From contig NZ_KV917378.1 in assembly GCF_002019735.1 (NCBI RefSeq), forward strand, positions 2,816,869-2,880,868: 64,000 bases of DNA, given 5' to 3'. Of the stretch, positions 1,993 to 44,790 are shown in pieces. This DNA comes from Salipaludibacillus agaradhaerens. GTDB taxonomy: Bacteria; Bacillota; Bacilli; Bacillales; Salisediminibacteriaceae. Position 1 is the first letter of the stretch. Each line of letters starts with the position of its first letter. The notes beneath the pieces were generated by a model that saw nothing but the letters and a program-made list of their open reading frames with translations, was not told the origin of the DNA and searched no databases. Made by a program: the position numbers and the translations under genes.

Positions 1993-2108
1993 GCTCAGCG
2001 ACGTCCTACTTTCACAGGGGGAGAGCCCCCAACTATCATCGGCGCTGGAGAGCTTAACTACCGTGTTCGGCATGGGAACGGGTGTGACCTCTCCGCGATT
2101 GTCACTGA
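1993..2108 (-). rRNA. rrf: 5S ribosomal RNA, operon 1
   Basis: The reverse complement has the conserved 5S core (CACACCCGTTCCCATGCCGA, AACACGG, GTTAAGCTCTCCAGCGCCGA, AGTTGGGGG). Ends were set from helix I, where CAGTGAC pairs with GTCGCTG. It is the last gene of a 16S-23S-5S operon and about 85 bases from the 23S 3' end. Confidence 0.95.
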
Positions 2109-2191
2109 ACATATCAAGGTCTTATCGACCTTTCAAAACTGGATAACGGGACTGATAGGACATCATGTCTTAGAGAAAAGACGACTTGCTT

Positions 2192-5129
<2,938 letters not shown>

Positions 5130-5538
5130 TCTTAAACCGCAGATCATCGACAGAGCGCGTCGTCAGCTGCGTTCGCTCACCATCCTCACGTACCTCAGTA
5201 CGTTCCGGTGTTGCGCTCACTTGCTTCCTCGATCTCTTTGATGCTCTTTGTTTAAGCACACTTCTGGCTTATCACCAGGTGGCTTAAACCCTTTCCTTTA
5301 TTAAAAAGGCGGTTTTAGGCGTCTTAATGGCCTTTTTCTAAGACACTCGGTTCTCTCATCGTTTGATTAAATCAAGCGATTGTGAACCGGTGATGTCATT
5401 TATCAGTCTTTCGTTATCCAGTTTTCAAAGGTCGATTCTTACCCAACGGGTAAGTTTTTCTATCTGAGAGTTTAACCTCTCAAAACTAAACAAAATAGCC
5501 AAAGCAAAGTTTTAATAAGCTGAGCTTAATAGCTCCTT
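5130..5538 (-). other. 16S-23S internal transcribed spacer, no tRNA genes
   Basis: This 409-base spacer has no tRNA-Ile or tRNA-Ala gene. It holds the 23S processing arm (about 5320-5435), the 16S 3' processing arm (about 5485-5515, complementary to 7200-7230) and an imperfect palindromic block at about 5150-5260 containing ACGTAC-CTCA-GTACGT. The second operon has the same spacer with only a few base changes near its 23S end. Confidence 0.8.
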
Positions 5539-7108
<1,570 letters not shown>

Positions 7109-7298
7109 GTTCGATGTCTCTGACATCATGTCCAAACTTTCGTCTGGCGTTGTTGAATGTTTCCACTCAACGCTTTGTTTCTTTGACGGGATATTTTCAT
7201 ATCCCACTTTGCTTGGCTTTTTGTTTAGTTTTCAAAGGTCAACTACAAGTAAGATATTATTTGAAAAGAACATCTTATTGTTTTAAAGCGACTAGATC

Positions 7299-7328
7299 AT
7301 CATATCATTTATCACCATATGATGTCAA
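7299..7328 (-). promoter_or_regulatory. rRNA operon 1 promoter P2
   Basis: On the minus strand TTGACA (7323-7328), an 18-base spacer and TATGAT (7299-7304) lie about 190 bases upstream of the 16S gene. The same pair with a 17-base spacer is found before operon 2. Confidence 0.8.
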
Positions 7329-13498: not shown

Positions 13499-14011
13499 TT
13501 ATTGCAAAGCGGTGATGTGTTCCACGATGTAGTCTTTTGTCACTGATCCGATTATATGGTCAGCTATAACGCCCTCTTTATCGATAATTATAGTTTCAGG
13601 CTGACCGGTTATTCCATAGTGTTCGGAGACACTTAAGTCAAAATCAAATAAATACAGTTTGTCCTCATAACCAGTACGATCGATAAATCTTTCCACAGCT
13701 CTTTTGGATTCCGTCTTGACGATAGTAAATACAAGTACGTCATCTGCATATTCCTTGCTAAGGGCAAGCATGTCAGGTGCTTGTGACTCACATGGTTGAC
13801 ACCATGTAGAGAAGAAATTTAATATGACAGTTTGTCCTTGAAAGTCAGACAGCTGATAAGATGTATTGTCATACCCTTCGAGAACAAAGTCATAAGCTTT
13901 ATCACCAACTCCTACCGTCTCACCTTGAACTTTCAATCCGACAACAAATACAATAAGAATACCGATGACAAATAGACCAGCGATCCCCTGCCCCAACTTT
14001 ACTTTTGCCAT
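13499..14011 (-). CDS. ccmG: Thiol-disulfide oxidoreductase, CcmG/ResA type
   Basis: A 170-aa membrane-anchored thioredoxin-like protein: one N-terminal transmembrane segment (residues ~10-27), then a redoxin domain with Trp70-Cys71-x-x-Cys74 in STWCQPC, and a cis-Pro at GQPETIIID. CcmG/ResA proteins keep the cysteines of apocytochrome c reduced outside the membrane before haem attachment. It is the last gene of the Ccm operon, 26 bases after ccmD. By sequence alone it cannot be told apart from ResA; the operon supports the CcmG role. Confidence 0.85.
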   Translation of the reverse strand: MAKVKLGQGIAGLFVIGILIVFVVGLKVQGETVGVGDKAYDFVLEGYDNTSYQLSDFQGQTVILNFFSTWCQPCESQAPDMLALSKEYADDVLVFTIVKTESKRAVERFIDRTGYEDKLYLFDFDLSVSEHYGITGQPETIIIDKEGVIADHIIGSVTKDYIVEHITALQ

Positions 14012-14037
14012 ATGTCACCCCCCCTTAAACAGACTCC

Positions 14038-14166
14038 TCACTCATCATTTAACTCTCGCAAAAATGATATCTCTTTCATTGCTTTTTGCTGACGCTTACC
14101 AATCACCCACATATAACTTGCCATCAACAGCCACGTGATAGCATAGGCAGCAAATAAATAAGTCAT
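14038..14166 (-). CDS. ccmD: CcmD-like small membrane protein
   Basis: A 42-aa protein with one transmembrane segment (MTYLFAAYAITWLLMASYMW) followed by a basic helix (KRQQKAMKEI). GGAGG lies eight bases before the ATG. Size, topology and position just after ccmC are those of CcmD, which is known to help release haem-loaded CcmE from CcmABC. The sequence is too short for certainty by similarity, so the call rests on these features. Confidence 0.8.
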   Translation of the reverse strand: MTYLFAAYAITWLLMASYMWVIGKRQQKAMKEISFLRELNDE

Positions 14167-14179
14167 CTTCACGACCTCC

Positions 14180-14911
14180 TTAGCTAATCATTTTCTCCCG
14201 TTTTTTAGCTTTCATCGATTGGACATATAGATTTAGTTTCTCCACATACAGTCCCTTTTGTAAAAGCACAATATAAACCAGCGTAAGTGTCATCACAGTA
14301 AATATGAGGGTCACGAGCATACCTGGATCTAAGCCTCCTCCCGTCTCTGTCCCTTCTGAAACAACAACTGGGTGCAAGTTAGACTCCCACCATCTAATAG
14401 ACATGTAAACAATAGGAACATTGGCAAAGCCAATAATGCCAAATACAGCTGCCAACCTGGCGCGCTTTTGCCACGCCATATCCAAATTCCTCACCATAAT
14501 ATAAGCCACGTACATAAAAAACAAAATTAATGTGGTCGTCAATCGCGGCTCCCATGTCCACCAAGTATTCCACGCAGAACGAGCCCAAATCGGTCCAGTT
14601 GTTAATACAATGGCAGTAAAGACTACTCCGATCTCACCACTCACACCAGCAATCAAGTCAAAAGATCGTTTCTTTGTCACGATATAAAGCAAACTGAAAA
14701 TAAAAACAATAAAAAAGGCAAAAAACGCATTCCAAGCTGAAGCTACATGAAAATAAAAGATTTTCTGCACCGGACCCATAACCCTTTCAACAGGTGACCA
14801 TATGAACACGAGATATAACGATATGATTACCATTGGAATAGAAAGTAACAGTAGCACATTGTGTAGCTTGGATGGCGCTAGGTGAGATAGATCATGGTTT
14901 TTAACGGTCAT
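14180..14911 (-). CDS. ccmC: Haem-handling protein CcmC
   Basis: A 243-aa integral membrane protein of the HMP family with about six transmembrane segments. The periplasmic-side tryptophan motif is NTWWTWEPRLTT (WD of the usual WxWD is WE here), with candidate haem-ligand histidines in YFHVASAW and ESNLHPVV. CcmC is known to load haem onto CcmE. GGAGGT precedes the ATG at 14911; a longer open frame upstream overlaps ccmB and is unlikely. Two bases separate it from ccmB. Confidence 0.93.
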   Translation of the reverse strand: MTVKNHDLSHLAPSKLHNVLLLLSIPMVIISLYLVFIWSPVERVMGPVQKIFYFHVASAWNAFFAFFIVFIFSLLYIVTKKRSFDLIAGVSGEIGVVFTAIVLTTGPIWARSAWNTWWTWEPRLTTTLILFFMYVAYIMVRNLDMAWQKRARLAAVFGIIGFANVPIVYMSIRWWESNLHPVVVSEGTETGGGLDPGMLVTLIFTVMTLTLVYIVLLQKGLYVEKLNLYVQSMKAKKREKMIS

Positions 14912-14913
14912 TT

Positions 14914-15606
14914 TTACACCTCCAACACATAGTCGAACAATAAAAATCCTGCGGCAAAAAATATGACATCGTAAGCTGCTATCAACTGAAGCCAACTTAA
15001 TACATCTTGAGTTCCTTCCTGTCCTATTAATACGATTCGAGTTGCTTGAACACCAGCTATCACAACCGGCATTACAAGTGGAAATAATAACACTGGTAAC
15101 AGTATCTCACTGCTTGTTGCATGAGCTACGAGCGCAGCAAGTAACGTCCCCACAGCAATGAAACCAAAGGTCCCCAGAGAAATAATTATTAACAGATATC
15201 CTAGTCCCATGTAATCTACTACGTGAAAATCAAATAAAATGAATAACAGCGGAATAGAGATAAGTTGAACGATCAGAACAAATACAAAATTGGCAAGACA
15301 CTTACCTAAATAAATACTAGCTGGGTCCACTGGAGCAGCCATTAACCCATGAATGTTATCATGCTGCTGTTCAGCCATAAAAGAGCGATTTAACCCAATA
15401 ACGCCAGAAAAAATCGTCATCACCCATATCATTCCTGGAACGAGTGCTTGCACAGCCTGATTTGAGGGGTCAAACGCAAAGCTGAACGTGACGATAACAA
15501 GCCCAGAAAATATAAGCATTGCTGATAACGTTTGCTTTGTCCGCCACTCCATAGAAAGATCTTTCCATGCAATGACTAAGGCAGGCTTTAATAACGTTCT
15601 CAGCAT
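14914..15606 (-). CDS. ccmB: Haem exporter subunit CcmB
   Basis: A 230-aa permease with about six transmembrane segments and the CcmB pattern (IAWKDLSMEWRTKQTL near the start, GLMAAPVDPASIYLGK in the middle, LPVLLFPLVMPVVI near the end). It pairs with the ATPase CcmA; the complex is known to drive release of holo-CcmE. Its ATG lies inside the end of ccmA (seven-base overlap), which suggests translational coupling. Confidence 0.92.
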   Translation of the reverse strand: MLRTLLKPALVIAWKDLSMEWRTKQTLSAMLIFSGLVIVTFSFAFDPSNQAVQALVPGMIWVMTIFSGVIGLNRSFMAEQQHDNIHGLMAAPVDPASIYLGKCLANFVFVLIVQLISIPLLFILFDFHVVDYMGLGYLLIIISLGTFGFIAVGTLLAALVAHATSSEILLPVLLFPLVMPVVIAGVQATRIVLIGQEGTQDVLSWLQLIAAYDVIFFAAGFLLFDYVLEV

Positions 15607-16301
15607 GTTATCTTCTTCCCTGCATACAATGTTTGAATCCATTCAACGGGACGCCCAACTATATTCTCGTCTTGAGAAATTTTCCCTTTTTTTAACACGA
15701 CAACTCTGTCACATACACCATTTATTTGATAAAAATCATGAGTGACCATAATCAAAGTGACGCCAATAGTCTTCAACTTTAGAAGTAACTCATTTAAAAA
15801 GGCAACCCCTTGTTGATCTAGGCCTGTATGGGGTTCATCTAATAGCAAGATTTCAGGATCATGGAGGAGCGACCGAGCAATCGCAAGTCGTTGGATCATC
15901 CCCCGTGAAAATAAACGCACTGGCTCGTGCTTAAAAAAAGAGAGCCCCACAGCATCAATCAGATGATTAATTCTTTCATCTGGGTTTGCTATATTATACA
16001 AGCGAGCAAAAAACTGCAGATTCTCGATCGACGTAAATGCCTCATAAAGAAAACTGCGATGACCAAGGTAACCAATAAGTTTTCGGTTCGTGTAATCTTC
16101 TTTTTTCATCACCTGGCTATTGATAACGACTTCTCCTGACGTTGGTTGAAGTAAACCGGCTGCAATTTTCAACCACGTACTTTTGCCAGCACCGTTTGAT
16201 CCCAATAGGGCCACGGCCTCCCCTCGTTTCACGGATAAGTCAACACCTCGGAGAACCAATTTATCACCTAGCGATTTGGTTATTTGCCGTGTCTCTATCA
16301 T
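15600..16301 (-). CDS. ccmA: ABC ATPase CcmA
   Basis: A 233-aa ATP-binding subunit. Walker A is GSNGAGKST, the signature is FSRGMIQR (an SRG variant of LSGGQ, common in CcmA), Walker B is ILLLDEPHTGLD, and the switch histidine is in MVTHD. Together with CcmB and CcmC it forms the ATP-driven haem relay. Of two adjacent ATG codons the second has the better spacing from AGGAGG. Overlaps ccmB. Confidence 0.92.
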   Translation of the reverse strand: MIETRQITKSLGDKLVLRGVDLSVKRGEAVALLGSNGAGKSTWLKIAAGLLQPTSGEVVINSQVMKKEDYTNRKLIGYLGHRSFLYEAFTSIENLQFFARLYNIANPDERINHLIDAVGLSFFKHEPVRLFSRGMIQRLAIARSLLHDPEILLLDEPHTGLDQQGVAFLNELLLKLKTIGVTLIMVTHDFYQINGVCDRVVVLKKGKISQDENIVGRPVEWIQTLYAGKKITC

Positions 16302-16319
16302 CATTTTCCTCCTCTTTAG

Positions 16320-16715
16320 CTAAGTCATAAAATCATTAAGCTTTTTTTTAATTTCATATAAATACTCTCTGTACTGCCTTGACTTTAACTCATATTCGGC
16401 TTCTGTTATTTTCCCTTCGTGATAGAGCGTATCTATCTCTAACAGTTTGTTTAACGTTATTTTTTTCTTTGTCATGAGCTGTTGGAACCTTTTTTCTTCA
16501 TCCGTGTTTTCCCACGTTTCTTTATTAGATTTGGCTTTATGTTTAAAATGAATTGCCAAACAAGCTCCTGTGATGATTATCATGAGGAAAATAGCGGTCA
16601 TAAGATGAGGCTCAAAACGATTGAGCGGTGACGTATACCACATTTTCATATGACCTTCAGGGTGAAAATTAGGGGTATACACAGGGGGGACAGAAGCTCC
16701 TAACCAATCCAGCAT
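16320..16715 (-). CDS. Ccm-associated membrane protein with CcmI-like helical tail
   Basis: A 131-aa protein with one transmembrane segment (about residues 40-58) and a cytoplasmic or external charged region. The C-terminal helices read LLEIDTLYHEGKITEAEYEL, the same G-K-[IV]-x-E-x-E-Y pattern as in the next gene and in the first gene of the operon. This pattern resembles the N-terminal helical segment of CcmI/CycH and SHOCT-like helices. No enzyme motif is seen. It sits 18 bases before ccmA and three bases after its neighbour. Function is inferred only from the operon. Confidence 0.6.
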   Translation of the reverse strand: MLDWLGASVPPVYTPNFHPEGHMKMWYTSPLNRFEPHLMTAIFLMIIITGACLAIHFKHKAKSNKETWENTDEEKRFQQLMTKKKITLNKLLEIDTLYHEGKITEAEYELKSRQYREYLYEIKKKLNDFMT

Positions 16716-16718
16716 AAG

Positions 16719-17087
16719 TTACTCCCCCTTTCGCTGTGTCTGCAATTCCTCTAATTCCTTGGTTATCTCAAGGTCATACGTGGCTTCCGTTTGATGGGGC
16801 CCCTTTTTACCCTTGTGTTCTACTTCTGCATAGGCCTCCTCTTTTAATAAGGTAACCGCTATTTTTTCATATTGAGACTTTAACTTGTCATACTCACTCT
16901 CAGGCACTTTGCCCATGTTATATTCCATATCAAGTTCATTAAGAGTTGCATAGATTTGCTCTAGTGTAATCGTATCTAGATCATCCTTGAGTGAACCGGC
17001 CTGCCATTCTTTTTGCGATGCAAAAAATGGTTGAATAACGAGGTAGAGACAAAGGCCAATAAGAAGAGCACCCACCACATACGCCAC
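16719..17087 (-). CDS. Ccm-associated CcmI-like membrane protein
   Basis: A 122-aa protein that starts with GTG, has one N-terminal transmembrane segment (YVVGALLIGLCLYLVI) and a helical tail with LNELDMEYNMGKVPESEYDK. This order of one helix in the membrane followed by the helical motif resembles the N-terminal part of CcmI, an apocytochrome c chaperone, but the TPR domain of full-length CcmI is absent. It may therefore be a short CcmI substitute. Placement between ccmH and the next similar gene supports a role in cytochrome c assembly. Confidence 0.6.
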   Translation of the reverse strand: MAYVVGALLIGLCLYLVIQPFFASQKEWQAGSLKDDLDTITLEQIYATLNELDMEYNMGKVPESEYDKLKSQYEKIAVTLLKEEAYAEVEHKGKKGPHQTEATYDLEITKELEELQTQRKGE

Positions 17088-17189
17088 TAAAAATCACATC
17101 CTTTCATTGAAAATGAATGTTTACAAACTCTTTTTACTATCCTATTGAGTCTTGTTAACAATTCCTTGTATATAAGTCATCGAACATCG

Positions 17190-17693
17190 TTAAAGATGGT
17201 GACGTTTCTCCTCTTCAATGAGTGCTTTCATGATGTCATTCTCAGTACTGTCTTGAGATACACCCTTCTCCTGCCCTTCTCTCGCTTCATCTGTTAATTG
17301 TTTATGGCCTTTCACTTGTCTCGTTACTCGTATAATAAATGCCGTTGTTCCTGCTCCTAAGGCGATAAAAGGAAGAATCCATGCGAGGAGACTAAATCCT
17401 GTTTTATTCGGTTCACGAAATCCCTGTTCTCCATACATGGCTTCATAGTCAGCAAGAATATCCTGTTTACTAAAGCCCTCATTAAGCATTTCTGCAATTT
17501 CCTCATAATAGCGTTGCATCGTCGTACACGTGGCTAGATCATGTTCGCTGTGTCCTTCCATAGCTAAGTGACTGGCAATGTCCTTCACTTCAGGAGAGTT
17601 GATCGTATAAATATCCTGACTTTGTACATGATTATAGGTTGGCATCATAATGAATAGAAGTATGCAAACGAGCAGCCATCGCCTTCGAATCAT
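17190..17693 (-). CDS. ccmH: CcmH-like protein with a single cysteine
   Basis: A protein of about 167 aa: signal peptide, a short helical domain, and a transmembrane segment at FSLLAWILPFIALGAGTTAF. The layout and FSKQDILADYEAMYGEQGF fit CcmH/CycL. The known family has L-R-C-x-x-C; here the equivalent is LATCTTMQ, so the second cysteine is methionine. A one-step thiol exchange with apocytochrome would then differ from the classical mechanism. The start is uncertain (ATG at 17693 or GTG at 17702), as the ribosome binding site is weak. Confidence 0.7.
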   Translation of the reverse strand: MIRRRWLLVCILLFIMMPTYNHVQSQDIYTINSPEVKDIASHLAMEGHSEHDLATCTTMQRYYEEIAEMLNEGFSKQDILADYEAMYGEQGFREPNKTGFSLLAWILPFIALGAGTTAFIIRVTRQVKGHKQLTDEAREGQEKGVSQDSTENDIMKALIEEEKRHHL

Positions 17694-17747
17694 ATTTATC
17701 ACATCCGATCTTGCTATTTTAATTTTCAGCCACCCCTTTGGACAAAG

Positions 17748-19727
17748 TTAATACACATTTCTTTCAGGACCAGTGTATCGCGGGTTAACCTGGCCATATC
17801 GACCACCCCATATAGCAAAGACAGCTCCTAAAACAAGGACAAAACTACCGATCCAAATCCACTGAACGAGGGGGTTAATTTTCACTTGAAATGTGGCACG
17901 TCTGTCCTCCTCCCAGCCGCTTAAAACCACATATAAATCTTCACGGAGTGTACTCCGAACCGCTACTTCCGTTGAAGGCTCCTCCCAATTTAAATAAAAG
18001 ACACGTTCTGGATAAATATAACCGAGATCTCGACCATGTTTTTCAATGGCTAATCTAGCAAATACACTCTCATTGACGCCATCACTTCGCTGCCCTAGCT
18101 GCTCATACGTAAGCGTATAATCACCGATTGTCAACGTTTCACCTATAGCTAATGTGTCCATACGTTCAACATCAAAATTAGCGCCTACAATACCGAAAGC
18201 GATTAAAGCGATGCCTAAATGGACGATGTAACCTCCATAGCGACGCCGACTTCGAATCATTAAACGAAATAATGCCACAGGTACGGCCTCTTTTGTTACG
18301 TGGCGTCTTGCTCTTGTTCTACGAATAAATTCCACAAGATGAGTTAATATCATAAACGTGATAATGGTAAACCCGAGGACAGGATAAGCGTCTTGTACTC
18401 CCATAACTACAATAACAATAGCGACAGCAACACTGATAATAGCCGGGATGAGGAATTTATCTTTTATATTCTTAAAGCTTGCACGCTGCCATGCAATAAG
18501 GGGACATATTGCCATAAGAAACAAGAGCGAAAGTAAAATTGGTGACATCACTGTATTGAAAAATGGCACGCCAACCGTTACCTTTGTTCCCCGTACCGCT
18601 TCACTCACTAAAGGAAAAACGGTACCCCAAAAGACTGCAAATGTACCACCAAGCAGTATGAGGTTATTAATTAAAAATGAACTTTCCTTTGATACATAAG
18701 CTTCAAATTGCCCCGTATCCTTTTTTATTAATTGATAGCGGCTCATTAACAAGTACATAGAAAAAATAACCATAAATGCCATAAACACAAGGAAATAGGC
18801 ACCTAAATTCGTCTCACCAAAGGCATGAACCGATGTGAGAACCCCACTTCTCACAAGAAATGTTCCAAACAACGTTAGGGCATAAGATAGAATAATCAAG
18901 CTTAAATTCCATATCTTTAACATGTTTTTACGCTCTTGAATCATGACAGAGTGTAAATATGCCGTCACCGTAAGCCAAGGCATAAATGACGCGTTTTCTA
19001 CAGGGTCCCATGCCCAATAACCACCCCAACCAAGCTCTGTATAAGCCCAATAACCACCAATAACATTACCTAGTGTTAGAAATGCCCAGGCAATAATCGT
19101 CCACCTTCTCGTCATTTGAATCCAAAAAGCATCCATATTTTTTACAATAAGTGAGGCAATTGCAAAAGCAAATGGTACAGCCAGCCCCACATAACCTAAA
19201 TAAAGGGTGACAGGGTGGAAAACCATCCCTGGGTCTTGTAGCATTGGATTCAAGCCCCTTCCTTCCACTGGGGTATTCTCTAAGATGGCGAAAGGTTGGG
19301 TGACAAAGCTTAATATAAAATAAAAGAACATGATGTTTAATAAGAGGATACTTGTAATGTAGGGTGTCATGGGATTGCGCTTCATTTTTTTTGAAAAGGT
19401 AACCATCGCACTGTACATCGTGAGGAAAAATGTCCATAACAATAACGAACCTGCGTTACCCGCCCATAATGCGGCTAATTTATAGATGAGAGGTAAATCT
19501 GAGCTTGTATAGTGAGCCACATACTCAAATTGAAATTGGCTTGTTCCTAGTAGTACAAACATTAACACCATTGACAGACTGGCAAGAATAAAAATACCCA
19601 TCGTAGCACCTTTGCCACTGTCAATAAATCGTTGATCTTGTTTATTAATCCCAAGGATATACACGATAAAAGCATAGATGGATAAAAAGAAAGCCAGGTA
19701 GATGGTGATATTTCCGATTACATGCAT
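17748..19727 (-). CDS. ccmF: Haem lyase subunit CcmF
   Basis: A 659-aa polytopic membrane protein of the haem-handling family. The tryptophan-rich WWD motif is WGGYWAWDPVENASFMPWL. Four conserved histidines are visible in FHPVTLYLG, AYLHSVMIQ, TSVHAFGE and YIVHLGIA, and a large external domain precedes the last transmembrane segment. CcmF is known to ligate haem from CcmE to the CxxCH motif of apocytochromes. The start is the ATG at 19727; a GTG nine bases up overlaps the ribosome binding site. Confidence 0.95.
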   Translation of the reverse strand: MHVIGNITIYLAFFLSIYAFIVYILGINKQDQRFIDSGKGATMGIFILASLSMVLMFVLLGTSQFQFEYVAHYTSSDLPLIYKLAALWAGNAGSLLLWTFFLTMYSAMVTFSKKMKRNPMTPYITSILLLNIMFFYFILSFVTQPFAILENTPVEGRGLNPMLQDPGMVFHPVTLYLGYVGLAVPFAFAIASLIVKNMDAFWIQMTRRWTIIAWAFLTLGNVIGGYWAYTELGWGGYWAWDPVENASFMPWLTVTAYLHSVMIQERKNMLKIWNLSLIILSYALTLFGTFLVRSGVLTSVHAFGETNLGAYFLVFMAFMVIFSMYLLMSRYQLIKKDTGQFEAYVSKESSFLINNLILLGGTFAVFWGTVFPLVSEAVRGTKVTVGVPFFNTVMSPILLSLLFLMAICPLIAWQRASFKNIKDKFLIPAIISVAVAIVIVVMGVQDAYPVLGFTIITFMILTHLVEFIRRTRARRHVTKEAVPVALFRLMIRSRRRYGGYIVHLGIALIAFGIVGANFDVERMDTLAIGETLTIGDYTLTYEQLGQRSDGVNESVFARLAIEKHGRDLGYIYPERVFYLNWEEPSTEVAVRSTLREDLYVVLSGWEEDRRATFQVKINPLVQWIWIGSFVLVLGAVFAIWGGRYGQVNPRYTGPERNVY

Positions 19728-19766
19728 AGTACTCACCTACTTTTGCAAAATATGATTGCTACTCTA

Positions 19767-20222
19767 TTAGTCGTCATCGATGTTTAATTGCCTATCCATC
19801 TCACGGTGAATATCTGGATCATAGTCTTCAGGGTCCTCTCCTTCATAAACAGATGGACATCGCGTTTGAACTTTGTCCGCTTCAAAAATACCGTCTGAAG
19901 TGACATATCCATGTACAATGACAATCACATCATCCGAAAAATTATCAGGCTGTACACCATGGTAATAGACGGATAGTTTATGTCCCTCTTCATCTTGTAT
20001 ATCAAATTGCAGTTCAATAGCATCCGCATTCCAAACAACCGAGTTCTCTATTAAAAAACCCTCAGTGGTAATGTATTTCTCTTCATATTCCTTGCCATTT
20101 TCGTTTAAATGATTAATTGGCACTTCCGCTCCGCTAGATGTTGGAGTAGCAGTAATAAGTAAGACAAGTATGCTCATAAAGATAAGACTTCCAGCCAAAA
20201 TAACTTTCGTATTTTTTTTCAC
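19767..20222 (-). CDS. ccmE: Haem chaperone CcmE, C-x3-Y variant
   Basis: A 151-aa protein starting at GTG: one N-terminal transmembrane helix (residues ~7-25), then an OB-fold-like beta domain (VYYHGVQPDNF; VIVHGYVTSDGIFEADKV). In classical CcmE haem is bound by a histidine in HxxxY; here the same position is RCPSVY, with Cys122 and Tyr126. This C-x3-Y form is known from archaea and some bacteria as a variant System I. The tail is strongly acidic. The gene begins three bases after its upstream neighbour, whose last codons supply the GGAGG. Confidence 0.9.
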   Translation of the reverse strand: MKKNTKVILAGSLIFMSILVLLITATPTSSGAEVPINHLNENGKEYEEKYITTEGFLIENSVVWNADAIELQFDIQDEEGHKLSVYYHGVQPDNFSDDVIVIVHGYVTSDGIFEADKVQTRCPSVYEGEDPEDYDPDIHREMDRQLNIDDD

Positions 20223-20225
20223 TTT

Positions 20226-21245
20226 TCATTCCTCCTTCACTAATGATTTCGTTCGTGCTTGATTATACGTTTCTTCATCGATTTCTCCACGAATGAGTTG
20301 TTGCCTTAATGCTCTAATCTGTTCGGCTTCAACGTCCTTTGAGTCAGACGGTTTAATTGTTTCTATGTGATGTTTAGCACGTGCTCTAAAACCAAAGAAA
20401 ACAAATAAACTAGCAATAATAAGTGAGATACTAATCATAATGGCGCCTTCCAATTCAATAAGAGGTCGCGTTTCTCCTGCCGCTTCCCCCGAGGCATCAT
20501 TCGTTTGAAATTGTGCATGAATCTCATCATTAGGAACCATTTGGTTTTCTAATGCTTCCAAGGTTGTAAAATGATCAGCTTTATCATAAGAAATTAGAAA
20601 CGTAAATCCTTCTCCTTCCTCAGCCTTTTCTTTCTCAAAGGCATAAGCTGGAACACCAAACATTTCTAACTCTCGATCAGGTTCTTCAGATACCGTAAAG
20701 TCCTCTGATCCAAGAGGTTCAAAGATAATGATACTGACGTCATCAGCTCGCCTTTCAAGTTCATAATGATAAGAAAAAGTGTATGTGTCATTGGACACTT
20801 CATAAGGATCAATGAAGTACTCTATGACAAATTGATAATTATCGCTAGACGCTATGGACCCTTCTGTTTCCCACACAATCTCTTGAGCTTCAGTGTCTAC
20901 GGAAGCTTCCACATCGTGTACAATGCCTTCTTCATCAAAAATGCCGACCATAGATAATGTAAACATATGGTTATCGCTAGGAACTGGGACTCGTATTTCT
21001 CCATCATAGGAAGATTCGTTTTCATTTTCTAAGGTCCCATGCTGGCCAACAAGCACTGCTGGTCGTCCTTCTTCCCATCCATCAGGCTCCACATATTGTG
21101 GCATGACCTGAATAACCAATTCTTTGTATGTAAGCGTTGAATTTGCCATCTCATCTTGAGCTGAAGCGACCCCAAAAGTGAAAATGACGTTAAGAAAGCT
21201 AAGTAGGAAAGCAATTCCACATAACCTTGTACGTTGGAGCCCCAT
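20226..21245 (-). CDS. Ccm-operon exported membrane protein of unknown function
   Basis: A 339-aa protein: signal peptide (cleavage probably near VASAQDEM), an acidic beta-rich external domain of about 220 residues, one transmembrane segment (MISISLIIASLFVFFGF) and a charged tail with LRQQLIRGEIDEETYNQA. The tail repeats the helical motif of the two small operon proteins. No known family was recognised. It is the first gene of the Ccm operon, preceded by GGAGGGG, and could be a haem or apocytochrome handling factor; that is inference. Confidence 0.65.
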   Translation of the reverse strand: MGLQRTRLCGIAFLLSFLNVIFTFGVASAQDEMANSTLTYKELVIQVMPQYVEPDGWEEGRPAVLVGQHGTLENENESSYDGEIRVPVPSDNHMFTLSMVGIFDEEGIVHDVEASVDTEAQEIVWETEGSIASSDNYQFVIEYFIDPYEVSNDTYTFSYHYELERRADDVSIIIFEPLGSEDFTVSEEPDRELEMFGVPAYAFEKEKAEEGEGFTFLISYDKADHFTTLEALENQMVPNDEIHAQFQTNDASGEAAGETRPLIELEGAIMISISLIIASLFVFFGFRARAKHHIETIKPSDSKDVEAEQIRALRQQLIRGEIDEETYNQARTKSLVKEE

Positions 21246-21632: not shown

Positions 21633-21648
21633 TGTGATTAACGTCACT
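21633..21648. promoter_or_regulatory. Crp/Fnr-type operator between the Ccm operon and the peroxidase gene
   Basis: TGTGATTAACGTCACT: a TGTGA-N6-TCACT near-palindrome matching the Bacillus Fnr/Crp-type consensus TGTGA-N6-TCACA. Fourteen of its bases recur with two changes upstream of nrfH (25331-25346). It is 125 bases from the peroxidase start and about 390 from the divergent Ccm operon start. A TATAAT at 21708-21713 may be the -10 of the peroxidase promoter. Confidence 0.6.
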
Positions 21649-21772: not shown

Positions 21773-22876
21773 ATGCTAAAGCACATGAAGCTTATTACGG
21801 CGCTTTCCGTCACGTCTGTACTTTTGTTGGCATGCGGAGATACAGAGAACACAGCCACTAAAGAATTTGACAATTCAGGAACAGATGTGACGAATGAACA
21901 AGGTGAGGAAACGGTCCATTCAAACGCTCACGATGACAATGATCCCTTTAGCGAGTTGATTAGCTTGTTTCAACCATTAGGAGACATGGAAATTCCTGAA
22001 GATAACCCAATGACGGAAGAAACCATCGAACTCGGTAAAACGTTATTTTTTGACCCTCGACTATCTGGAGATAATTCGTTAAGCTGTGCCTCCTGTCACA
22101 TTCCTGCTCTGGGGTATGGAGATGGTAAGCCTCTTTTTGAAGGCTTCGATGGTGTTGAAGGCCCTAGAAATACCCCTACCATCATTAATTCAGGTTACTA
22201 TACATCTCTGTTTTGGGATGGACGGGCAGATTCCTTAGAATCTCAAGCACTGGGACCTATTGAGTCTGAAATCGAAATGAATCAAGATTTAGATGAACTA
22301 GTCGTCCAACTATCAGAAATTGCTGGTTATGTGGAGAAATTTGAAAACGCTTTTAATGATGACATTACGGTTGAAAACATAGGAAAAGCACTGGCAGCAT
22401 TCCAACGAACGATCGTGATTGATGACACACCTTTTGATGCTTTTTTAGCTGGAGACTACGATGCCCTAACAGAGGAAGAAATTAAAGGTATGGCGCTTTT
22501 CGCTGGTGAAGCCTCATGCATAACATGTCACACAGGTCCAAATTTATCTGATGATAACTTCCATAATATCGGTATGGAAACAGATGATAAAGGGCGTTAC
22601 GATGTGACTGGTGAAGACGCGGATATTGGGGCATTCCGAACACCAGGCTTATACGGTATTGATCATCGCGGTCCCTACATGCATAACGGGAGCATTGAAA
22701 CGTTGGAAGATGTAATAGACTATTATGATCGGGGAGGGGACGATCATCCTAATAAGAGTGCGTTAATGCAAGAGCTTAATTTAACAAATGACGAGAAAGA
22801 GGCTCTTCATGCTTTTTTATTAGCATTATCTGGCGAGAGCCCACATGTTGATGTCCCTCCTCTTCCAGATTATTGA
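21773..22876 (+). CDS. Di-haem cytochrome c peroxidase (lipoprotein)
   Basis: A 367-aa lipoprotein of the CcpA/MauG family that reduces hydrogen peroxide with electrons from the respiratory chain. A lipobox LLLAC ends at Cys21, an acidic linker follows, and two haem motifs are present: CASCH at 105-109 and CITCH at 249-253. Family landmarks LGKTLFFDPRLSGD, NTPTIINSGY and GAFRTPGLYGIDHRGPYMHN are all visible. GGGAGGG lies seven bases upstream of the ATG. It is the only plus-strand gene in the respiratory block and depends on the adjacent Ccm system for haem attachment. Confidence 0.93.
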   Translation: MLKHMKLITALSVTSVLLLACGDTENTATKEFDNSGTDVTNEQGEETVHSNAHDDNDPFSELISLFQPLGDMEIPEDNPMTEETIELGKTLFFDPRLSGDNSLSCASCHIPALGYGDGKPLFEGFDGVEGPRNTPTIINSGYYTSLFWDGRADSLESQALGPIESEIEMNQDLDELVVQLSEIAGYVEKFENAFNDDITVENIGKALAAFQRTIVIDDTPFDAFLAGDYDALTEEEIKGMALFAGEASCITCHTGPNLSDDNFHNIGMETDDKGRYDVTGEDADIGAFRTPGLYGIDHRGPYMHNGSIETLEDVIDYYDRGGDDHPNKSALMQELNLTNDEKEALHAFLLALSGESPHVDVPPLPDY

Positions 22877-22979: not shown

Positions 22980-24440
22980 CTAATCGTCTAATTCCAACAC
23001 ATTTGGGAAGTTATCGTTTGTTGCGTGAGTATGTTTTAAATCTGGATCTTCTTCGTTATAAACTGCCTGAATTGTTTCTTCTATTTGAGCCTCTAACTCT
23101 TCTAGGTCCACATCTAATTTAATTAACTCTTCAATAGCGATACTTATCGCTTCATTTGATGCATCAGAGGAGGTTCTCATAGCATCCATCCCCCCTTGAG
23201 GATTATGAAAGCCATCAGAATTTTCAGCAGCGATAATATCCCAAAACCACTGTCCTTTTCGAATATACCATTGAGCTTCCTCAATACGCTCTTGTGGAGC
23301 TCCAACCGTAATCATCCGATTAACGTAATAATGGGCTCGCACTGAATGATCTTGTGTTTCTTCCATAGCTTCCAGGTGGCGTGATTGAATATTTTCAACC
23401 CTTTCCACTAAATCAGCTTCTGATTTATCCGAATGGCACGTTCGACATGTTTGTTCAACGTTATCCATTGGGGAGCTCCAATGATGCGAAGTTATTTTTT
23501 TACTGCCATCTGTTCGTTCATAAGGCATGTGACAATCTGCACAAGACACCCCTGCTTCCCCATGTGGGCCATAACTCCACAACTCAAATTCGGGATGCTG
23601 TGCTTTTAACATAGGCGCGCCAGAAATACTATGAATCCAATCGTATTCGAAGCCATCCTCTTTGGCTTGATTTTCTTTATATTCAAACATTTCTTCTGGC
23701 TTTAACCCATTATCCCAAGGAAAGGTGACCTTTTTTTTATCCGGTTCAAAGTAATATTCCACATGACATTGGGCACAAACATAACTTCTCATATCATTTT
23801 TTGTGGCTTCTGTCACATCTATCCCCTGTCTAGCCATGGCATTTGTAAAAGATGGTCTAGTTATACGCAGCTCCATTGTCACAGGATCATGACAATCAGA
23901 ACAGCCAATAGAAAGATGTCCATATGTGCCTAATTCATCACTTTCAAAGCCTTCTCCATACGCCAATGTTAGTGGGACGATCTCCTCTTTAAAATTAGCA
24001 CTCCAATAATCATCCCCCATCTCATCTAAAAGCGCTGGAACAGCTGTACTTTTACACGTCATACACGACCCTATTGAGTCATCATTAATACGGGCTATGG
24101 ACATAACGTCTTCTAACGCATACGTATGTCCCCTCGTTTTGTTATACTCTAGCATAAACCCATAGTTATGAAACAAAATAGGGAGGTTCGGTTCAATATC
24201 TTCAGCAAATTTTGATGTATTGTCGTTTTCAGGCACCATATTTTTTAAATAACTTTCATATTGAAGTGGAAACTCATCTTTAAAAGCTGAGTTTACGATT
24301 TCGTCAGGTGATAATTGCGTCGTATACATATCTTGATCTGTGGACGTCTCGGACTCACTACAGCTCACCATAAGCGTTGTAAAACTTATCATAAGGAGAG
24401 CAACCAGCCAGTGTACGGGCATTTTTTTGATGGTCGCCAT
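22980..24440 (-). CDS. nrfA: Ammonia-forming cytochrome c nitrite reductase NrfA
   Basis: A 486-aa pentahaem enzyme that reduces nitrite to ammonium outside the membrane. The catalytic haem motif is CMTCK (126-130), with lysine as ligand; the other four are CSDCH (180), CAQCH (222), CADCH (300) and CRTCH (332). CAQCHVEYYF and SGAPMLKAQHPEFELW are strong NrfA landmarks. A lipobox MVSC ends at Cys27, so the protein is probably lipid-anchored, expected in a Gram-positive host. Start at the ATG after GGGAGG. It follows nrfH by 26 bases. Confidence 0.95.
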   Translation of the reverse strand: MATIKKMPVHWLVALLMISFTTLMVSCSESETSTDQDMYTTQLSPDEIVNSAFKDEFPLQYESYLKNMVPENDNTSKFAEDIEPNLPILFHNYGFMLEYNKTRGHTYALEDVMSIARINDDSIGSCMTCKSTAVPALLDEMGDDYWSANFKEEIVPLTLAYGEGFESDELGTYGHLSIGCSDCHDPVTMELRITRPSFTNAMARQGIDVTEATKNDMRSYVCAQCHVEYYFEPDKKKVTFPWDNGLKPEEMFEYKENQAKEDGFEYDWIHSISGAPMLKAQHPEFELWSYGPHGEAGVSCADCHMPYERTDGSKKITSHHWSSPMDNVEQTCRTCHSDKSEADLVERVENIQSRHLEAMEETQDHSVRAHYYVNRMITVGAPQERIEEAQWYIRKGQWFWDIIAAENSDGFHNPQGGMDAMRTSSDASNEAISIAIEELIKLDVDLEELEAQIEETIQAVYNEEDPDLKHTHATNDNFPNVLELDD

Positions 24441-24466
24441 GACCTTATTACCTCCCTTCACAAAAA

Positions 24467-24952
24467 TCAACGTCTTGCATCATAACTGCCCGGATCAAAC
24501 CAATCTTCTGGTTTATGTCCCCCATTCCCATGAGGAACGTGCCGATGGCAATCTACACAACCCCCTTCCTTCACATCATGAAACGCCACATTATCCAAAC
24601 CTGCTTCATGGCATGTTATGCAATTTTTATCGATGACTTCCTGAGATTGGGCAGTGGCATGAATATTATCTGGAACCTGATCAGACCCGAGTGTATTCAT
24701 ATACATGTGGCTTGCCCCAGCTTTTGCTTTAAAAACAAGCTTGGCTGTTAAACTATCATTGGGCGCATGACAATCATTACACGAAAGCGTGGCATGATTT
24801 GAATCCATAAAAGAATCGTAGTAGTCGTCCATAATATGACAGGTGGAGCAAAATTCTGGAGAATCCGTTGCTTTCATAGAGCCCACCGTCCCTGCAAACA
24901 ACACAATCCCTATAAAAATTCCGCTTAATACTAACAGCAACTTTTTCCTCAC
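24467..24952 (-). CDS. nrfH: Tetrahaem quinol dehydrogenase NrfH
   Basis: A 161-aa membrane-anchored cytochrome of the NapC/NirT family that passes electrons from quinol to NrfA. One N-terminal transmembrane segment is followed by four CxxCH motifs: CSTCH (35), CNDCH (58), CITCH and CVDCH. The start is a GTG at 24952 because AAGGAG lies six bases upstream; a TTG at 24976 would add eight residues but has no spaced ribosome binding site. Together with nrfA it forms a two-gene operon. Confidence 0.94.
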   Translation of the reverse strand: MRKKLLLVLSGIFIGIVLFAGTVGSMKATDSPEFCSTCHIMDDYYDSFMDSNHATLSCNDCHAPNDSLTAKLVFKAKAGASHMYMNTLGSDQVPDNIHATAQSQEVIDKNCITCHEAGLDNVAFHDVKEGGCVDCHRHVPHGNGGHKPEDWFDPGSYDARR

Positions 24953-25045
24953 TATAAGCTCCTTAAATGCTCTCAACCCCTTCCCCCCCCTTTTTTAAAA
25001 AAGTTATTCTTTCTTAATAGCAGGCAGTTTTTTTACTTCTAAATG

Positions 25046-25302: not shown

Positions 25303-25346
25303 ATTGTATAAAGGCCCCCGCACACATTTACGTGATCCACGTCACA
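25303..25346 (-). promoter_or_regulatory. Probable nrfHA promoter with Crp/Fnr-type operator
   Basis: The minus strand reads TGTGACGTGGATCACG (25331-25346), then TACAAT at 25303-25308. A start near 25296 puts the operator centre at about -42, the usual place for an Fnr-type activator. No -35 hexamer is needed at such promoters and none is seen. The resulting leader would be ~340 bases and contain repeat copy C. Confidence 0.6.
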
Positions 25347-39591: not shown

Positions 39592-42528
<2,937 letters not shown>

Positions 42529-42937
42529 TCTTAAACCGCAGATCATCGGCAGAGCTCGTCGTCAGCTGCGTTCGCTCACCATCCTCACGTACCTCAGTAC
42601 GTTCCGGTGTTGCGCTCACTTGCTTCCTCGATCTCTTTGATGCTCTTTGTTTAAACACACTTCTGGCTTATCACCAGGTGGCTTAAACCCTTTCCTTTAT
42701 TAAAAAGGCGGTTTTAGGCGTCTTAATGGCCTTTTTCTAAGACACTCGGTTCTCTCATCGTTTGATTAAATCAAGCGATTGTGAACCGGTGATGTCATTT
42801 ATCAGTCTTTCGTTATCCAGTTTTCAAAGGTCGATTCTTACCCAACGGGTAAGTTTTTCTATCTGAGAGTTTAACCTCTCAAAACTAAACAAAATAGCCA
42901 AAGCAAAGTTTTAATAAGCTGAGCTTAATAGCTCCTT
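42529..42937 (-). other. 16S-23S internal transcribed spacer, operon 2, no tRNA genes
   Basis: As in operon 1, with base changes seen at three places near the 23S end (CATCGGCAGAGCTCG against CATCGACAGAGCGCG, and TTTAAACAC against TTTAAGCAC). The processing arms and the palindromic block are kept. Confidence 0.8.
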
Positions 42938-44507
<1,570 letters not shown>

Positions 44508-44699
44508 GTTCGATGTCTCTGACATCATGTCCAAACTTTCGTCTGGCGTTGTTGAATGTTTCCACTCAACGCTTTGTTTCTTTGACGGGATATTTTCATA
44601 TCCCACTTTGCTTGGCTTTTTGTTTAGTTTTCAAAGGTCAACTACACTCTTTTCTTTCATAAAAAATGAGTGCGCTTTCTCTGTTGTTGCGACTTATAT

Positions 44700-44728
44700 A
44701 TCATATCAAAATCTACTCCTTATGTCAA
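44700..44728 (-). promoter_or_regulatory. rRNA operon 2 promoter P2
   Basis: On the minus strand TTGACA (44723-44728), a 17-base spacer and TATGAT (44700-44705), close to the sigma-A consensus. A hairpin CACTCTCACAGTG lies just upstream. Confidence 0.82.
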
Positions 44729-44790
44729 CACTGTGAGAGTGTGATTTTCACCAGAATTAATTTTGATTTGTTTTTTCAGCAACGTTTAAT

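Follow-up and report, generated by a model that had tools for sequence, protein, structure and literature searches.

The exp-ccm operon and its neighbours

The stretch of DNA analysed here, 64,000 nucleotides of the Salipaludibacillus agaradhaerens genome (hereafter the window), carries an operon for cytochrome c maturation (Ccm) of the variant type called System I*. The operon opens with a gene named exp, continues through ccmE to a ccmG-like gene and lies near nrfHA, which encode the quinol dehydrogenase NrfH and the nitrite reductase NrfA (Table 1). Most likely, the operon serves the maturation of NrfHA while ResB and ResC of System II serve the rest, as suggested by the extent of the association between these genes, by anaerobic-type boxes and by reduced relatives of the operon.

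All eleven genes of the operon are open at the coordinates of Table 1, on the minus strand, in an open reading frame check of the window. The expected Pfam and NCBIfam families were recovered, which bears out the first-pass annotation of a complete variant System I operon: CcmE at E 9e-20, CcmF_C at 6e-64, CcmB at 1e-31, the cytochrome-c assembly family (CcmC) at 2e-26 and CcmH at 1e-10, with the CcmA equivalog over its cut-off and CcmD_alt (6e-12) over its own. By family match, the protein called CcmG is a ResA/DsbE-like thioredoxin. Other parts of that annotation stood only in part. The CcmH-like protein does belong to its family, but the family CXXC is gone and a single Cys is left in the motif region. 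The two proteins described as CcmI-like, I1 and I2, have no significant family match (CcmI domain E 0.11 for I1), and the tetratricopeptide repeat (TPR) family is absent from their Pfam and NCBIfam matches up to E 1; judged by eye, each is a small protein whose single hydrophobic segment is accompanied by a charged tail. Finally, the link with NrfHA is supported, but nrfHA is parted from exp-ccm by an opposite-strand gene for a MauG-type peroxidase. This gene is found in 3/6 congener loci, and one of the other three, L107, ends at a contig edge.

Table 1. Features of the exp-ccm and nrfHA region, in window coordinates
Feature	Position	Strand	Remarks
exp	20226..21245	-	First gene of the operon; signal/anchor helix, two beta-sandwich domains, transmembrane (TM) helix, C-terminal helical hairpin
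ccmE	19767..20222	-	C-x3-Y haem chaperone; Cys122, Tyr126
ccmF	17748..19736	-	Haem lyase; WGGYWAWDP motif, candidate ligand His present
ccmH	17190..17702	-	Type B paralogue, CXXC lost
I1	16719..17087	-	Small CcmI-like membrane protein; CcmI domain E 0.11
I2	16320..16715	-	Second small CcmI-like membrane protein
ccmA	15600..16304	-	ABC ATPase; TIGR01189 above cut-off
ccmB	14914..15642	-	Pfam/NCBIfam match
ccmC	14180..14995	-	Open reading frame as listed; true start probably internal, near 14920; WWTWE, not WWxWD
ccmD, alternative family	14038..14172	-	CcmD_alt match
ccmG/resA-like thioredoxin	13499..14011	-	WCQPC
nrfA	22980..24470	-	Pentahaem nitrite reductase, CMTCK active-site motif; proposed client
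nrfH	24467..24976	-	Tetrahaem quinol dehydrogenase; proposed client
MauG-type dihaem cytochrome c peroxidase	21773..22876	+	Possible further client
Fnr-type box, 1 mismatch	21633..21648	.	Between exp and the peroxidase gene
Fnr-type box, 1 mismatch	25331..25346	.	Upstream of nrfH

A cysteine-type System I beside System II

The haem site of the window CcmE, RCPSVY, contains Cys122 and Tyr126 in a C-x3-Y arrangement, and the H-x3-Y of canonical System I is not found in this protein. The same C-x3-Y occurs in every CcmE read, i.e., in the window, in 55/55 Bacilli loci and in 37/37 of a later set, and the assignment to the cysteine-type variant therefore holds. CcmA, CcmB, CcmC, CcmE and CcmF are all present with their haem-handling motifs; the WGGYWAWDP motif and candidate ligand histidines of CcmF are intact, while a Glu replaces the Asp of WWxWD in CcmC. 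PMC12077264 counts this Asp (D126 in E. coli) as one of the best-conserved residues in haem crosslinking. Across the 55 Bacilli loci, the motif is WWxWE in 33, which form the window's clade, and WWxWD in 22, and the genome holds NrfA for 30/33 of the former compared with 0/22 of the latter.

System I* has been known from Firmicutes since 2011 (PMC3601427). The systems of Desulfovibrio, archaea and some Firmicutes share with the window the C-x3-Y CcmE, the CcmABCEF core and the haem-handling motifs (PMC3601427, PMC9084895). The window differs from them in adding CcmD, a CXXC-less CcmH, a CcmG/ResA-like protein and exp, in the WWxWE of its CcmC and in the presence of System II beside the operon. 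Absence of CcmH was part of the first description of System I* and was later judged not characteristic, since about one third of bacteria with a C-type CcmE have CcmH (PMC3601427); its occurrence here, which had been noted as unexpected, is thus in keeping with the type.

The window genome is not without System II. A genome search for resB and resC, which the first-pass annotation had proposed as a check, found both outside the ccm operon, ResB at G000:C1:806073-807467 and ResC at about 804800-805750; the same genome has one CcmE and one CcmF. The assumption that Bacilli use System II only does not hold either. CcmE occurs in 24/150 relatives (10/79 genera) and in 34/398 Bacilli (25/146 genera), and is missing from 126/150 relatives. 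Among 56 Bacilli genomes chosen for CcmE or NrfA, ResB is present in 26/26 of the window's order and in 2/30 of other orders. Ccm-bearing Bacilli therefore show two arrangements: in this order System I* accompanies System II, and in other orders it mostly stands by itself. Since all 26 same-order genomes have ResB, a lack of System II does not explain their Ccm.

Co-occurrence of NrfA, Ccm and Exp

NrfA (PF02335) was found in 24/150 relatives, 10/398 Bacilli and 30/397 genomes of a sample of the order. Twenty-three of the 150 relatives have both CcmE and NrfA; one (G050) has CcmE only, and one (G034, 76% complete) has NrfA only. In the 398 Bacilli, all ten NrfA genomes have CcmE, and a further 24 genomes have CcmE without NrfA. 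The two samples combined give CcmE in 30/31 NrfA genomes, and the congener G003 has neither. The first haem motif is CXXCK in 59/59 pentahaem frames of at least 420 residues from the NrfA search loci and in 63/64 NrfA frames of the 69 exp loci described below, the exception being a 204-residue fragment. The PF02335 matches in L103-L106 are other multihaem proteins; that of G166 (L103) has 497 residues and eight haem motifs, one of them CXXCK, and is an octahaem protein, not a pentahaem NrfA.

A profile built from 21 members found exp in 31 of the 56 chosen genomes: 30/31 with NrfA (the miss being G034) versus 1/25 with CcmE but without NrfA (G171). The order sample supplied another 15 NrfA genomes, several of which overlap the 69 loci; 14 of them have exp in the fetched stretches, and the one without it, G644, is 62% complete and its contig measures 5 kb. 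Fisher's test on the exp/NrfA table gives p 1.4e-13 by genome and 1.2e-4 by family (10/10 vs. 1/9), values that overstate the association because there are few changes of state on the CcmF tree.

In several genomes NrfA has two to four paralogous copies, whose motifs are CMTCK, CLTCK, CMSCK or the like (L295, L299, L300, L311, L312, L115, L123, L126, L128), some copies having no exp in the fetched stretch. G162 has nrfA, ccm and exp on three separate contigs (L089, L271, L316), and its NrfA frame stops at 422 residues, below most others.

Full, reduced and minimal operons

A scan of an 84,980-species collection with exp as bait, which limits what the result can say on exp itself, gave 69 loci, with Bacillaceae-type titles in all but one ('Chryseobacterium'). 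They comprise 34 full exp-ccm operons (30 with nrfA in the locus), seven reduced operons, 25 minimal loci with exp-nrfHA alone and three others. The reduced operons consist of exp-ccmF-ccmH-I1 beside nrfHA and lack ccmE, ccmA, ccmB, ccmC and ccmD; three of them also have I2 and ccmG. CcmE lies elsewhere in 30/31 searched genomes of the reduced and minimal classes (L220 was left out, and the miss is a metagenome-assembled genome). In 30/30 loci, the separate general ccm operons have an exp of their own next to a dihaem cytochrome.

In the CcmF tree (FastTree), which has some long branches, one lineage (32 rows, support 99) unites the nrf-linked ccmF genes of Mesobacillus and Cytobacillus with those of the seven reduced operons; the other (58 rows, 97) takes in the window, Evansella and the general operons. 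The exp tree joins the minimal and reduced nrf copies to those same nrf-linked full operons (59 rows, 99) and leaves the window exp outside. These trees and gene contents fit a series in which the dedicated operon, in genomes that already had a general Ccm, would have shed first haem delivery and later the lyase.

Two of the 69 loci call for comment as records. L179, whose contig bears the title Chryseobacterium sp. ISL-80, has this Bacillaceae operon and is probably mislabelled. In L218 (Mesobacillus boroniphilus JCM 21738), exp, ccmE, ccmF, ccmB, ccmC and nrfH each fall in two frames, probably through poor sequence.

Fnr-type boxes

Sites with at most one mismatch to what we take to be the Fnr consensus lie within 450 bp of 83/96 exp genes scored, a set that counts some genomes twice and includes two pieces of the split gene of L218; random stretches give 50/1780, ccmE 0/96, ccmC 0/92 and ccmA 1/109. 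For nrfH, which is often inside an operon, the count is 24/90. Of the nrf-linked exp copies scored, 24/24 in the minimal class and 7/7 in the reduced class have such a site (L198, with too short an upstream stretch, is left out), whereas in the same genomes it is found at 4/30 exp copies of general ccm operons and at 1/30 dihaem genes. This comparison of nrf-linked with general exp copies is the cleanest promoter contrast in the data. The ccmE regions of NrfA-free operons have a site in 2/25 cases (900 bp). Over the window, the pattern with two mismatches occurs at chance level (34 vs. 31 expected), so that only conservation across loci gives the boxes weight; sigma-70 and terminator scans likewise returned no more than chance.

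Two CcmH paralogues

CcmH comes in two paralogous types: A with CxCGC, and B with a single Cys after GH, in which His51 and Cys59 are invariant in a 34-row alignment. Each type forms one side of a branch in the CcmH tree (support A 94, B 96), and the split is kept, on few columns, with only the part after the motif (A 88, B 91). In Salipaludibacillus, a locus may hold A, B or a tandem of the two; loci of the Evansella and Anaerobacillus types hold A or both, and the window has B only. Type A occurs in all 28 general ccm loci with a CcmH found (of 30, L241-L270), and type B occurs in all seven reduced nrf operons. The two types would thus appear to stem from an old duplication, sorted differently among lineages. 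The loss of CXXC with the rest of CcmH retained bears on whether CcmH acts as a reductase or as a scaffold. In ten loci among L131 and L137-L161, mostly from Bacilli of other orders and nearly all without ResB, CcmH has no Cys in the motif region.

The Exp protein

The Exp ectodomain matches no Pfam or NCBIfam family, the only match being a weak one to SHOCT at the C-terminus, and a PDB sequence search with the exp profile returned no match. An AlphaFold2 model from 58 sequences has a mean pLDDT of 81.8, with every ten-residue block of 41-230 averaging at least 91. It predicts two beta-sandwich domains (38-221), a TM helix (265-289) and a C-terminal helical hairpin (303-336); reading of the C-termini shows that the hairpin is missing from 24/25 minimal-class proteins and kept in L199. 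The best PDB matches of the model are to ribophorin I/Ost1, followed by many M1 aminopeptidases. The match to 8pn9_E has E 2.5e-9, but rmsd 16.9 over 320 columns; that to 6ezn_A has E 3e-7, rmsd 4.2 over 231 columns and a query TM score of 0.41. The N-domains of ribophorin I/Ost1 and of the M1 aminopeptidases have a two-sandwich fold like that of the Exp ectodomain, at 10-13% identity. Ost1 is a membrane-anchored subunit of a modifying complex. As modelled, the likeness to ribophorin would be one of common fold and says nothing on common function.

Proposed role of the operon

We propose, with a probability of roughly 0.6, that exp-ccm is a dedicated, anaerobically induced System I* for the maturation of NrfA, kept beside ResBC for this one main purpose. 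The boxes being present, a presumed Fnr-type regulator would turn on exp-ccm and nrfHA together in response to low oxygen. Judging from family knowledge and the intact motifs, CcmABCD would deliver haem to Cys122 of CcmE, which would pass it on to the CcmF lyase, and the CcmG/ResA-like thioredoxin would supply reducing power. The system would attach haem to NrfA, including the active-site haem on CXXCK, and probably also to NrfH; the NrfA of the window carries CXXCK and is its presumed client. ResBC would serve the housekeeping cytochromes, as in many relatives without CcmE. We offer two hypotheses on the loss of CXXC and the role of Exp: the CXXC-less CcmH-B may be a docking subunit that works with CcmF, not a reductase, and Exp, membrane-anchored with its two-sandwich domain outside, may hold or present apo-NrfA to the lyase, as its association, layout and fold would allow.

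A further-reaching and more tentative view is that Gram-positive ammonifiers evolved their own CXXCK lyase, an nrf-dedicated line of System I* in which NrfA is recognised jointly by CcmF, the CXXC-less CcmH and Exp, the last being a ribophorin-like subunit that presents the substrate and belongs to a new family. It is possible, although the odds are somewhat against it. If it holds, the shrinking of the dedicated operon to exp-ccmF-ccmH-ccmI and then to exp alone would make Exp the part that confers NrfA specificity.

Several observations weigh against a dedicated role in NrfA maturation. Some NrfA genomes have only CcmH-A (L112-L114, L117, L119, L123, L126), so that CcmH-B is not needed for CXXCK. 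Conversely, in G050 a multihaem cytochrome of the CXXCH type lies next to ccm with CcmH-B, and this genome has no NrfA and no exp. Besides its copies in the general ccm operons, exp occurs with ccm in G171, where no NrfA was found; an additional exp-like gene lies away from both nrf and ccm in G166 and in G186, as does the single exp of G162. Extra copies of nrfHA or nrfA have no exp in the fetched stretch (L296, L299, L311, L312). On the CcmF tree, NrfA changes state two times and exp three times, and an independent-pairs test is not significant (median p 0.5): the association between exp and NrfA is extensive, yet few independent events underlie it. With exp as the bait, the series of operons records what became of the ccm genes and does not show that exp is always retained.

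Two stricter proposals were rejected. CcmH-B as strictly CXXCK-specific is ruled out by the A-only operons with NrfA and by the one B operon without it, and Exp as strictly NrfA-linked is ruled out by its copies in general ccm operons and by the few unlinked copies.

The operon could instead be a general anaerobic Ccm for any multihaem cytochrome, with NrfA merely its commonest client and CXXCK irrelevant. Such a role would suit the related ccm operons without NrfA in G050 and on two plasmids, the ccm operon beside a dihaem cytochrome in Neobacillus-type genomes and the MauG-type peroxidase gene that adjoins the window operon. We nevertheless consider it unlikely, given that Fnr-type boxes mark the nrf-linked exp copies far more often than the general ones and that a separate nrf-linked ccmF lineage is kept in seven genomes that also hold a general ccmF. 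Even less probable, in our view, is that NrfA and Ccm travel together through linkage in one ancestral operon, without functional dependence. The few changes on the tree and the strong linkage in most loci speak for this explanation. Against it, the order of the genes varies, since nrfHA may precede exp, follow ccmG or lie beyond the fetched stretch; genomes with unlinked NrfA still have both (G157, G159, G162, G166, G186), and nearly all reduced- and minimal-class genomes keep CcmE elsewhere.

Comparison with known systems

A link between nrfAH and ccmEFHABC was reported in 2012 for Bacillus azotoformans (PMC3475470), which shares with the window both the nrfHA-ccm linkage in Bacillaceae and a CXXCK NrfA. 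In the portion of that account available, the linkage takes one sentence, and exp, CcmH variants, ResBC and regulation go unmentioned. Between its locus tags for nrfA (03255) and for the start of ccm (03265) one further gene would fit, possibly exp. As far as the accessible texts go, nrf-ccm linkage and System I* in Firmicutes were thus already published, and much of the earlier surprise is in print. Within the literature searched, which did not extend to subscription journals and was in part available only as excerpts, we came across no account of exp, of CcmH-B or of the reduced nrf operons, and none of the distribution beside ResBC, the CcmH paralogues or the promoter contrast.

The nearest parallel to the seven reduced operons is NrfEFG, the CXXCK lyase of E. 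coli: in both, the nrf operon holds a second CcmF, CcmH and CcmI-like set while the haem delivery genes lie elsewhere (PMC3601427, PMC12285233). By comparison with NrfEFG as described in the excerpts of these sources, the window has System I* and not System I, a full operon and no second CcmF/CcmH/CcmI set; its CcmI-like proteins have no TPR match, its CcmH has no CXXC, and exp is added. NrfI of Wolinella succinogenes, a System II CXXCK synthase, answers the same problem, that of NrfHA with CXXCK in a System II organism, but there a second CcsBA does what Bacilli would achieve by adding System I* (PMC12285233). According to the consulted part of a 2025 review, NrfHA relies on System II, and except for Wolinella NrfI it is unknown how the CXXCK haem is attached in such bacteria (PMC12285233). 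Bacilli with NrfHA do not agree with the first statement and offer a testable answer to the second, in the form of a dedicated System I* that comes with a possible specificity factor. The full, reduced and minimal series would allow the tasks of haem delivery, lyase and substrate recognition to be told apart genetically.

Age of the operon

The fetched stretch includes tadA in 5/6 congener loci (L107-L111), in 3/3 loci of another genus of the family (L117-L119, two of them Evansella) and in 3/3 loci of a second family (L123, L126, L128), and most of these loci have dnaX as well; tadA was not found in the fetched stretches of the other 44/55 loci. The CcmF tree joins the loci with tadA (19 rows, support 99), placing the window gene within a long-standing Bacillaceae clade, the very outcome that the first-pass annotation had named as telling against its proposal of a transferred respiratory module. 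GC is 0.38-0.41 throughout the operon and its surroundings. A recent transfer, for which a patchy spread over 10/79 genera and the ccm operons of plasmids pB218 (Metabacillus) and p1 (Cytobacillus) might speak, is largely refuted and highly improbable, since the plasmid operons are a separate lineage with neither nrf nor exp, the tadA-dnaX neighbourhood is common to three genus-level groups in two families, and the CcmF clade matches it with no shift in GC. An ancient acquisition of the operon is possible.

The plasmid-borne ccm operons without nrfA or exp are those of Metabacillus sp. B2-18 and Cytobacillus firmus M7 (L162, L163), both on large plasmids, where a 51-residue SHOCT-type protein stands in for exp. 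Elsewhere in the window, GC rises to as much as 0.54 at about 2000-7300 and 39700-44750, where the two segments share a matching pattern of spurious open reading frames and are probably two rRNA operons.

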